Assembly (NCBI RefSeq): GCF_002156705.1
Contig: NZ_CP019893.1
Span: forward strand, 2,046,001 to 2,110,000
DNA from: Natrarchaeobaculum aegyptiacum
GTDB taxonomy: Archaea > Halobacteriota > Halobacteria > Halobacteriales > Natrialbaceae
Direction: 5' to 3'
DNA: 64,000 nt
Shown: positions 13,695 to 54,784 of the stretch, piece after piece
Position numbering within the stretch: position 1 is the first letter of the stretch
Layout of the letters: each line of letters begins with the position of its first letter
Translations under genes and position numbers: made by a program
Notes under the pieces: generated by a model
Told to the model about the DNA's origin: nothing
The model's database searches: none
What the model saw: the letters and a program-made list of their open reading frames with translations, nothing else

Positions 13695-13846
13695 GCCGAT
13701 AGCGCCCGTCCCGCCGTCTCCGGTCGCAACTGACGTGGCCACCCACACGCACTTGCTCGACGGCGTCGAACGTGGTTTCGTGACATCCTCCCCGTCGTAA
13801 ACAGTAGACGCCGAACCTAATTTGTGCCGTTGCTGGTAGGGATGCT

Positions 13847-14959
13847 ATGGTCGAAACGACCGAAGCAAAACAGGTCTGTCGCGCCGCTTCTACCGTCGTG
13901 TATCCAGCGCTCGACTTTGGCATCAAGCCCTGTGGGAGCTACACGAGAGAGGACTTCGAGAAGCTCCTCTCTCGTGTCGCCTTCGAACAGGAATTTGCCA
14001 ACACAGCTGGGAAAACGTGCCAACTCGATGACGGCGAGCCCGTCGACGTCACGTCGACGGCTCGCAACGGACTCGCAAAATCGTTCCTCTACCACCTCCG
14101 GAACATGGAGGCGGACGCCATCGACGGCCAGTTCGATGGCGTCCGCGACGACCTCTTCGAGATCATCCGGAAACGACGGCTGTTACCCGAGTATGTCGAT
14201 GTTGCGATCGATCTCCACGAGTGGCGGTTTTACGGCGATGCAGACACTGACTACGTCTTGATTACCTATCCCGACCAGGGGACCAATCGAACGTACTGTT
14301 TTGCGACCATCTGTATCGTCGCACCGGGAACACGATTTACACTCGACGTGCTGGCGCTGGAGGCGAACGGCTTTCGCGAAAAGCGCGAAGCCGTTCGCTC
14401 GCTGCTCGAAACCGCACGAGAGCACGTCTCGATCAGCCACGTCTACCTCGACAGAGGGTTCTACCAGGTCCACGTCGTTGCGGAACTCGAGCAGCACGAT
14501 GTCGACTATATCGTCCGTGCACGTCCGAGTAAGGGGATGAAAGCCCGTCTCAGCGCCGGCGCTGAGACGGTTGTCGACGACTATCTCATGCAGCGAAAAC
14601 GTAAGCCGACCGCTTCGGTTGCAGTGACTGTGTTTGCTGTGCCCCATCGGTCAAGCGAAGACGAGCACGTCTGGTTCGTTACGAATCTCGATCTTGAACC
14701 TGAGGCAGCGAGAGCGTACGCGGCGGCGTTCCGCCGCCGCTGGGGAATTGAAACCTCCTATCGCCAAATCGGAGACTTTCTCCCGAGAACGTCGTCGCCG
14801 ACGTTCTCGGTGCGACTGTTCTACTTTCTGTTCGCAGTTGCGCTGTACAATCTCTGGGTTCTGGCGAACGTTCTCGTCACAGAGGGAACGATTCCTGGGA
14901 ACCCACCGATCTCGACGAAGATTTTCCGTGAATTCGTGCTCGTGACTGACTACGGCTAG
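13847..14959 (+). CDS. ISH3-like DDE transposase (copy 1)
   Basis: The 370-residue cut-and-paste transposase is of the IS4-like clan. The catalytic triad candidates are Asp in AIDLHEW, Asp in YLDRGFY and Glu in the GIETSYRQ motif. The C-terminus has hydrophobic LFYFLFAVALYNLW typical of ISH3-group enzymes. The frame is intact with no stop, so it is probably active. The protein of copy 2 is the same length and differs at about 50 of 370 residues by my count. The start at 13847 is the first ATG after the left inverted repeat. Confidence 0.88.
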   Translation: MVETTEAKQVCRAASTVVYPALDFGIKPCGSYTREDFEKLLSRVAFEQEFANTAGKTCQLDDGEPVDVTSTARNGLAKSFLYHLRNMEADAIDGQFDGVRDDLFEIIRKRRLLPEYVDVAIDLHEWRFYGDADTDYVLITYPDQGTNRTYCFATICIVAPGTRFTLDVLALEANGFREKREAVRSLLETAREHVSISHVYLDRGFYQVHVVAELEQHDVDYIVRARPSKGMKARLSAGAETVVDDYLMQRKRKPTASVAVTVFAVPHRSSEDEHVWFVTNLDLEPEAARAYAAAFRRRWGIETSYRQIGDFLPRTSSPTFSVRLFYFLFAVALYNLWVLANVLVTEGTIPGNPPISTKIFREFVLVTDYG

Positions 14960-15021
14960 ACCACTCTCTGCACCGACCGAGAAGATCGGTCAAGAAAAAG
15001 CAAAGTGAGTGACAACGCTTC

Positions 15022-15044
15022 GGAGCGCCGCTGTACGGCGCTCC
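15022..15044 (+). terminator. Hairpin downstream of transposase in IS copy 1
   Basis: Stem GGAGCGCCG pairs with CGGCGCTCC over a 5-nt loop, followed by TTCGCTTCC. The equivalent hairpin in IS copy 2 has two base-pair changes that keep pairing, so the structure is conserved. It could be a transcription terminator, an mRNA 3' end or a transposase-related DNA structure. Confidence 0.5.
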
Positions 15045-15182
15045 TTCGCTTCCTTGATCGTGCCGCTCCAGCTATCGTACGCTAGTGCCACCAACTACGG
15101 TAACGAATCAAAGAGTTTCAGGAAGTTTGGTCCGTTGTTTCGGCAACTACTGTGAAGGCCGGGATTCCCTCCTCGAAGGAAG

Positions 15183-53132: not shown

Positions 53133-53329
53133 GCGAGGTTCGACGGCCCGCTGGTGGTTCGTTCTGTCGGTTTGGCCAGTCGACTGCCGGGACCGGTGCG
53201 GTTGACATCTTCCCCGCGCTGAACAGTAGTTGCCGATTCAACGCGGACAGACGAACGAAACTGGTCGATCAATCGATTTGGATTGCAGCGTTCCAACGAT
53301 CTATGCGACACAGCGAGGAAGGGAGCGAA

Positions 53330-53354
53330 GAAACGCCGCTGTCGGCGGCGTTTC
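53330..53354 (-). terminator. Hairpin downstream of transposase in IS copy 2
   Basis: Stem GAAACGCCGC (53330-53339) pairs with GCGGCGTTTC (53345-53354) over a 5-nt loop. It is equivalent to the copy 1 hairpin; two stem positions changed on both sides so that pairing is kept. It is a possible terminator or structural element. Confidence 0.5.
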
Positions 53355-53414
53355 TGAGCGTTGTCACTCAGTTGCGGCGTTCTGACCGATCAGCTCGGTC
53401 GGACCGATCTCTCT

Positions 53415-54527
53415 CTATCCGTAATCGGTCACAACAATGAATTCCCTGAAGACACGCGTCGAGATCGGCGGTTTCTCCGGGATAACACCGCCAGAGACGA
53501 GTACATTTGCGAGGATCCACAGATTGTACATCGAAACCGCGAACAGGAAGTAAAAGAGCCGTACCGAGAACGTCGGCGACGACGTTCTCGGGAGAAAGTC
53601 ACCGATCTGGCGGTAGGAGGTCTCAATTCCCCAGCGGCGGCGGAACGCCGCCGCGTACGCTCTCGCTGCCTCAGGCTCGAGGTCGAGATTCGTGACAAAC
53701 CAGACGTGCTCGTCCTCGGTCGATCGATGTGGGACCGCAAACACAGTCACGGCAGCTGAGGCGGTTGACTCACGCTTCCGCTGCATGAGATAGTCGTCGA
53801 TAACCGTCTCAGCACCGGCGCTGAGACGGGCTTTCATCCCGTTGCTCAGGCGTGCACGGATGATGTAATCGACGCCAAGTTGCTCGAGTTCCGGAACGAC
53901 GTGAATCTGGTAGAACCCTCTGTCGAGGGAGACGTGTCTGATCGAGGCGTACTCTCGTGCCGTTTCCAGCAGCGAGCGAACGGCTTCGCGTTTTTCGCGA
54001 AAGCCGTTCGCCTCCAGTGCCAGCACGTCGAGCGTGAACCGCGTTCCTGGTGCGACGATACAGATCGTCGCAAAACAGTAGGTTCGATTCGTTCCCTGAT
54101 CGGGATAGGTGATCAGGACGTGGTCAGTGTCTGCGTCGCCGTAAAACCGCCACTGGTAGAGGTCGATCGCAACATCGACACAGTCGGGCAAGAGTCGTTG
54201 TTTCCGGAGGATCTCGAAGAGATCGTCGCGGACGCCAGCGAACTGGCCGGCGATGGCGTCCGTCTCCAGATTTCGAAGGTGGTAGAACAGTGATTTAGCG
54301 AGTCCGTTGCGAGCCGTCGACGTCACGTCGACCGAATCGCCATCATCGAGTTGGCACGTTTTCCCGGCGGTATTGGCAAACTCCTGTTCGAAGGCGACAC
54401 GGGAGAGGACGGTCAGAAAGTCCTCTCTCGTATAGCTCCCACAGGGTTTGATATCGAACTCGAGCGCTGGATACACGACGGTGGAAGCGGCGCGACAGAG
54501 CTGTGTTGCTTCGGTCGTCTCGACCAA
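53415..54527 (-). CDS. ISH3-like DDE transposase (copy 2)
   Basis: The 370-residue transposase is intact, with Asp in AIDLYQW, Asp in SLDRGFY and Glu in GIETSYRQ. About 50 residues differ from copy 1, spread along the protein and mostly conservative, so the two copies are not a very recent duplication. The start on the minus strand at 54525-54527 is the first ATG after the right inverted repeat. Confidence 0.88.
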   Translation of the reverse strand: MVETTEATQLCRAASTVVYPALEFDIKPCGSYTREDFLTVLSRVAFEQEFANTAGKTCQLDDGDSVDVTSTARNGLAKSLFYHLRNLETDAIAGQFAGVRDDLFEILRKQRLLPDCVDVAIDLYQWRFYGDADTDHVLITYPDQGTNRTYCFATICIVAPGTRFTLDVLALEANGFREKREAVRSLLETAREYASIRHVSLDRGFYQIHVVPELEQLGVDYIIRARLSNGMKARLSAGAETVIDDYLMQRKRESTASAAVTVFAVPHRSTEDEHVWFVTNLDLEPEAARAYAAAFRRRWGIETSYRQIGDFLPRTSSPTFSVRLFYFLFAVSMYNLWILANVLVSGGVIPEKPPISTRVFREFIVVTDYG

Positions 54528-54784
54528 AGCCGCCCTACCAGCAACGGTGCAAATTAGGTTCGGCGTCTACTGTGAAGGGCGAGGCTTTCGCCTCGAATTT
54601 TTCGTAACGTGGGTCATCCAGTCGCCGTGGACACCGCGTCCATCTCGGAAGTCACCTCTGCCAGTCCGTATCACCAGTTTCGATCCGCGATGGCCGATCG
54701 CTCGTGGGCGTCGACGGCCGGAACTACTACCACCGCCGACTGACCATGTGAACCCGGAGCCACAGCTCTTTGGGTGATTTCGCC

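Follow-up and report, generated by a model that had tools for sequence, protein, structure and literature searches.

The transposases of insertion sequences (IS) that target REPs belong to the IS3 and IS110 families, and REPs themselves are thought to be moved by an IS200-like TnpA_REP. For ISPsy8 and others, every copy was described as occupying one and the same point in a repeated palindrome, with ISPsy8 at the REP symmetry axis flanked by a 3-bp duplication (Tobes and Pareja 2006, PMC1525189); ISPa11 lacks a duplication. Haloquadratum walsbyi carries the repeat SMR-A, whose reported insertion sites are palindromes near the ends of IS605-type transposons and of PATEs (Dyall-Smith et al. 2011, PMC3119063). 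According to that paper, most insertions of a MITE into another element in Haloquadratum strike IS605 or PATE elements; SMR-A is about 110 bp long and without a transposase, with terminal repeats unlike those of any transposon and reportedly no target duplication, and its mobilisation is termed enigmatic (PMC3119063). Here we analyze a group of ISH3-like IS from haloarchaea and consider it very probable that a clade of these DDE elements inserts selectively in the near-terminal hairpin loops of IS200/IS605 elements and of their TnpB-less remnants.

Two ISH3-like copies in the window

The window, by which we mean the whole stretch of 64,000 nucleotides of Natrarchaeobaculum aegyptiacum DNA that was analyzed, contains two ISH3-like IS with the following features.

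13781..13797, + strand: left foot and arm of copy 1, TGACATCCTCCCCGTCG
13798..13801: left flank of copy 1, TAAA, one base off the TGAA on the right side
13802..15152, + strand: ISH3-like IS copy 1, 1351 bp, ends CAGTAG...CTACTG
13847..14959, + strand: transposase of copy 1, 370 aa
15153..15156: right flank of copy 1, TGAA
15157..15169, + strand: right arm and foot of copy 1, GGCCGGGATTCCC
53202..53219, + strand: left foot and arm of copy 2, TTGACATCTTCCCCGCGC (F1, the outer side of an IS605 right end)
53220..53223: left target duplication of copy 2, TGAA, the hairpin loop
53224..54572, - strand: ISH3-like IS copy 2, 1349 bp, ends CAGTAG...CTACTG, the same ends as in relatives
53415..54527, - strand: transposase of copy 2, 370 aa, DDE_Tnp_1 by Pfam and alignments, NCBIfam ISH3 best though below cut-off
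54573..54576: right target duplication of copy 2, TGAA
54577..54606, + strand: right arm GGGCGAGG and foot CTTTCGCCTCGAATTTTT of copy 2 (F2, the outer side of an IS605 left end)

The two copies are 85% alike over 1257 aligned bases of DNA, and their transposases are 86% alike. Copy 1 is inverted relative to copy 2 and was detected by BLAST; a direct-repeat search of the window did not pick it up. Both copies appear to be intergenic from a reading of the open reading frames, and neither TnpB nor tnpA was seen beside the two sites. A preliminary description, made from the sequence alone, had placed copy 2 at 53224-54573 and both copies in the TGAA loop of a hairpin; we confirm copy 2 at 53224-54572, with TGAA at 53220-53223 and 54573-54576. 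The flanks are as it quoted them, and at copy 2 the duplication of TGAA is exact on both sides; however, copy 1 is flanked by TAAA and TGAA and has no exact duplication, only 6 of 8 arm positions pair at copy 2 and 5 of 8 at copy 1, and the rejoined sites fold as single strands no better than their shuffles (z -0.92 and +0.23). The orientation of F1 at copy 2 was taken from the TnpB-bearing loci L021 and L132 and that of F2 from the TnpB-bearing loci L078, L074 and L264. With an F1 flank on one side and an F2 flank on the other, we read the copy 2 site as a probable fused, TnpB-less remnant. Both window sites are of this fused type. For copy 2 this is clear; for copy 1 it is our reading of the flanks, which the flank patterns class as a right end. 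Five related loci were checked for an orthologous empty site of the window copies, and no hairpin motif was present there. By itself the evidence in the window is suggestive, and it is the copies elsewhere that decide.

For both transposases the best family was NCBIfam NF033541 (ISH3), the model that we take to cover the canonical ISH3/ISH27 elements, yet the scores (140.8 and 148.6 bits) lie below its cut-off of 225; Pfam PF01609 (DDE_Tnp_1) matched with E values of 1.7e-12 and 1.4e-13. Residues D122, D202 and E302 are conserved in the copy 2 transposase, and by our own reading they form the DDE triad. A structure model of poor to modest quality (mean pLDDT 61) found its best Foldseek match in Tn5 transposases (TM 0.4, rmsd about 12), and this loose match suggests cut-and-paste transposition; a search of PDB sequences returned nothing at E 0.1. 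In a quick tree of 49 transposases, in which long branches separate the clades and the root is a midpoint root only, the two groups found in hairpins (A and B) form a clade with an SH-aLRT of 100, as do the canonical ISH3 transposases. The tree thus supports the hairpin transposases as a clade apart from canonical ISH3. For nearly all of the wider ISH3-related transposases of 540-590 aa, our search turned up no end repeats with a duplication. ISH3-related transposase genes of about this length (~540-590 aa) occur in series ~5 kb apart without recognisable ends, as at L344/L362 (G027:C2), L347 (G082:C3) and L351/L358 (G058:C2).

Related copies in the same genome and across haloarchaea

The 3.93-Mb genome of N. 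aegyptiacum contains four more related IS of 1387 bp each, with 0 differences among them, whose transposase (L018) shares 50% identity with the copy 2 enzyme. Each is flanked by an exact 4-bp target-site duplication (TSD) that forms a hairpin loop (TGAA, CAAA, TGAA and TTTA), and the arms around these loops pair at 8, 8, 8 and 7 of 8 positions. Two of the rejoined sites fold well (z -3.45 and -3.66), as does the intact paralogue of a third (z -4.24). This paralogue provides the empty site that the preliminary description had proposed to look for: compared with the occupied site, the TnpB-side flank has 99.86% identity over 693 bp, the opposite flank is identical through TTGACATCCTCCCGCGCC and then diverges, and the TnpB proteins of the two loci are 99% identical over 156 residues. 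Here, then, a TnpB element received an IS in the loop of its right-end hairpin. Elsewhere, at 2915529-2915571 (L017, G000:C1), a solo IS end abuts TTGACACCCTCCTCCCAC-TGAA, a hairpin half-site. About 12 kb from L017 and beside a tnpB, an internal piece of this type of IS lies at 2927315-2927945 (L016), and the two are perhaps one split copy. The same genome also has, at L024, L026 and L027, an uninterrupted TTGACCTCCTCCCGCGCC-TRAA/TACA that is followed within ~10 bases by GGTATGCGCT; these sites may represent another family of solo, imperfect palindromes.

We searched 391 genomes of the class for relatives of the transposase at E 1e-40 or better and found them in 60 genomes and in 28 of 86 genera; phage records gave no match at E 1e-20. 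The loci from this search, together with 55 named loci, seven plasmid loci and the four copies described above, make up 144 loci, which yielded 111 copies with distinct flanks (L125 and L197 being one locus counted twice, and L114 being kept in the counts with a wrongly called left end). Both ends were found for 82 copies, one end for 23 and no end for 6. When 8-bp arms were scored around the 4-bp site, at least 6 of 8 positions paired in 67 of the 82 two-ended copies and at least 5 of 8 in 74, as compared with 0.8% and 3.8% for random positions in the same loci (41,000 draws). These counts support the proposal first made from the window, that the IS selects a hairpin loop and duplicates it as a 4-bp target. 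An exact 4-bp TSD flanks 50 of the 82, including 42 with at least 6 of 8 pairs, and a 5-bp repeat was found in 1 of the 82. Alignment of the flanks gave loops that are mostly TTCA, TGAA, TAAA or TTTA; the exact TSDs are TTCA and TAAA (13 each), TGAA (10), TTTA (8), TCAA (3) and TTTG, TGTA and TAAC (one each). The left loop is TRAA in 41 copies, TTYA in 29 and another sequence in 12, so that both IS orientations occur. Half of such a hairpin was seen by eye in 22 of the 23 one-ended copies, the exception being the long relative L203, whose one end lies outside any hairpin; for the group C transposases (L122, L123 and L125) a single end was found, on a hairpin side. Most copies are inside such hairpins, and the few with an exact TSD outside them are L233 (TTTA) and L261 (TCAA); L266 has half a hairpin only, L110 is next to one arm of a hairpin of greater length, and L090, L114 and L235 are damaged or miscalled. 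Together, these comparisons make site-selective insertion in IS605 hairpin loops a well-supported reading of the sequences, with a 4-bp duplication that is the loop itself, mostly T-R-A-A or its complement.

The 32 two-ended copies without an exact TSD comprise 18 that are one base off, 11 whose loops are reverse complements (exactly so in 8, but for one base in 3) and 3 others. Recombination between copies explains some of these, for example L071 and L113, which have right-end feet on both sides. Reverse-complement 4-bp flanks together with a natural pair of feet, judged by pattern or by eye, are seen at L241, L112, L074 (one change), L255, L260 and L262; such natural-foot sites may reflect palindrome-templated correction of one loop.

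Elements without a transposase are found in the same kind of site. Six places in four genomes carry an element that shares these ends and is 183 bp long, except for one of 267 bp; at four places its arms pair at 6, 5, 7 and 5 of 8 positions and the duplication is exact in three, and at L299 and L300 the last hexamer is changed and hairpin halves were seen by eye on both sides. Two 63-bp elements in one genome and 50-bp elements in two genomes (one each) also lie in loops with 6-7 of 8 arm positions paired, and one of these four has an exact duplication. For a 61-bp match (L325), half a hairpin is present on just one of the two sides. In 382 genomes, a pattern search for short elements returned fewer hits than did the reversed control, most of them due to chance, and short elements were counted only if their terminal repeats match. 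The short derivatives look like MITEs that may be moved in trans. A separate 71-bp repeat, CAGTAGGTGCTGAATCTG...TTCTACTG, which is not in hairpins, was noted at four places in one genome and one in another (L316, L330 and L331 in G283; L314 in G199), two of them at contig ends.

The target hairpin and what is recognised

To characterize the hairpin itself we compared it with known RNA families and with nearby genes. Rfam RF02656 (sot0042), a haloarchaeal sense-overlapping or omega-RNA, matches the intact locus L022 (62.4 bits, E 6.5e-14) with the hairpin as its 3′ end, and at the occupied locus L132 (65.8 bits) the match spans the loop up to the IS junction; both scores are below the gathering score of 88. 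The family was found in six of 53 loci scanned and, as far as checked, runs across the target hairpin only at L132 and the intact L022. TnpB adjoins 10 of 79 loci examined within 1-1.5 kb (some less), and also L264 as annotated; most targets are remnants, or have TnpB further off. These observations agree with the early suggestion that the target is an IS200/IS605 end palindrome. Often, however, the hairpin is that of a fused remnant and not of a live IS605 end.

TnpB served to orient four kinds of flank, with L021 and L132 as right ends and L078, L074 and L264 as left ends. By foot pattern, in classes defined after the sequences had been seen, the 82 sites fall into 27 with both outer flanks, 22 left ends, 9 right ends and 24 that are unclassified or mixed and lie outside the three natural pairs. 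We read the 27 sites with two outer flanks as likely fused, TnpB-less remnants of the PATE type (PMC3119063). Left, right and fused ends are therefore all used, in both IS orientations and also by the transposase-less derivatives. Intact F1-type hairpins without an IS, whether right ends or fused, are present in 112 of 194 genomes, and free targets are therefore common; a hairpin half followed by an IS end was found at 19 sites, derivatives and relics counted, in 14 of the 194.

The dependence on pairing was assessed by shuffling the right arms within each of two transposase groups. None of 10,000 shuffles matched the observed pairing, over all eight pairs or over the inner five; this is not a strict probability, as the copies are related, yet 80 of the 82 targets are distinct from one another within 12 bp of the loop. 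Pairing is thus kept while the sequence of the site changes, which argues for a role of the palindrome, although this does not prove that its extruded form is what the transposase reads. Canonical ISH3 elements served as a control. Their 50 loci gave 46 with ends, and 0 of these 46 sites reach 6 of 8 pairs; 19 distinct sites, chosen for a 5-bp TSD and having strong terminal repeats, pair at 0-4 positions. The N. aegyptiacum genome itself has four canonical copies with 5-bp TSDs (ATACT, AAAAT, ATGCT and AAGAT) and arms that pair at 0-3 of 8.

Based on these results we propose that a Tn5-like cut-and-paste transposase would cut across the loop with a 4-bp stagger, and that it would recognise not a single fixed sequence but a hairpin (an extruded cruciform or a single-stranded stem-loop) with a TNNA loop. 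Insertion at a right end would separate the guide of the omega-RNA from the 3′-terminal hairpin and, likewise, the end recognised by TnpA from its element. The host transposon would thus be disabled, and the IS would come to rest in DNA that is presumably harmless to the cell.

An alternative is that the transposase reads a double-stranded consensus of the IS605 end (CCC...TRAA...GGG plus feet) and that the hairpin is incidental. We regard this as a serious contender, if the less probable account: most targets do carry outer CCC/GGG and a TNNA loop, and the hairpin-less insertions at L233 and L261 are still at TTTA and TCAA. In the fetched loci, which are a biased sample, 23 of 29 intact CCC-N5-TRAA-N5-GGG sites have at least 4 of 5 inner pairs; such sites are mostly hairpins anyway, and readings by sequence and by shape are therefore hard to part. 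Nevertheless, the arms vary (CCCCGCCC, CCCACGGC, CCCACGAG, CCCACCCC, CCCGCGCC and others) and the feet are of four kinds, while pairing within each copy is kept. The copy at L206, with an exact TTTA and 6 of 8 arm pairs, has none of the usual feet by our patterns and flanks unlike IS605 ends, and may speak for recognition by shape. The outer CCC/GGG and the feet could also contribute by being read as sequence.

Two further explanations do without target selection altogether. The arms and TGAA might belong to the IS as longer terminal repeats, and in 11 of the 82 copies the 4-bp flanks are indeed reverse complements, so that arm, loop and end make one inverted repeat. This reading is scarcely credible: the four IS that are identical over 1387 bp differ in their loops and one in its arms, intact F1-type hairpins exist without any IS in 112 of 194 genomes, and the empty site refutes it. 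It is also highly improbable that insertion is random or biased to intergenic DNA, with the survivors in dead transposon ends reflecting selection. Transposon remnants are neutral DNA and both window copies look intergenic, as such survival would have it, but the insertion point at the hairpin sites is the loop, selection could hardly pick one 4-bp loop among all neutral DNA, and canonical ISH3 copies in the same genome sit at four 5-bp targets without hairpins.

Comparison with described elements

In the literature, with most subscription journals and ISfinder lying outside our search, we found no ISH3-like IS that targets IS605 hairpins. SMRs and MITEs that hit palindromes and bacterial IS that hit REPs are already known; what is new is a clade of autonomous ISH3-like elements that specialises in the loops of IS605 hairpins. 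Here one selfish element uses another, the TnpB-carrying IS200/IS605 group, as a landing pad, and repeatedly breaks its end hairpins, at some sites the guide-RNA end. A natural DDE transposase that is strongly site-selective for a short palindrome of variable sequence also offers a system for asking whether DNA shape is read. That the shape of the hairpin is recognised, that TnpB is disarmed and that these IS are linked to SMR-A are inferences. Taken jointly they compose a picture that we put forward tentatively, as rather unlikely to hold in every part: the transposase would recognise the extruded hairpin and duplicate its loop, and the clade, with derivatives down to 50-63 bp, would act on TnpB transposons as a hyperparasite that severs the omega-RNA scaffold from its guide and disables RNA-guided cutting, with this clade or a relative as the missing mobiliser of SMR-A.

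Canonical ISH3 elements resemble the hairpin groups in having a DDE_Tnp_1-type transposase and a similar length, and the commonest canonical type found here starts with CAGTA. In contrast to their 5-bp TSDs without hairpins, the hairpin groups have 4-bp TSDs and a branch of their own. The REP-targeting bacterial IS (IS1397, ISKpn1, IS621, ISPsy8 and ISPpu9/10) are alike in having palindromes as targets, though theirs are bacterial REPs, and instead of IS3- or IS110-type enzymes the hairpin-targeting transposases are DDE_Tnp_1/ISH3-like. With SMR-A, compared here by its published description, the likeness is in the target palindromes; the elements described here differ from it in being autonomous IS with a 4-bp duplication and short derivatives of their own. 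They thus offer a candidate autonomous partner for the transposase-free Haloquadratum repeats that occupy the same palindromes, a question left from 2011.
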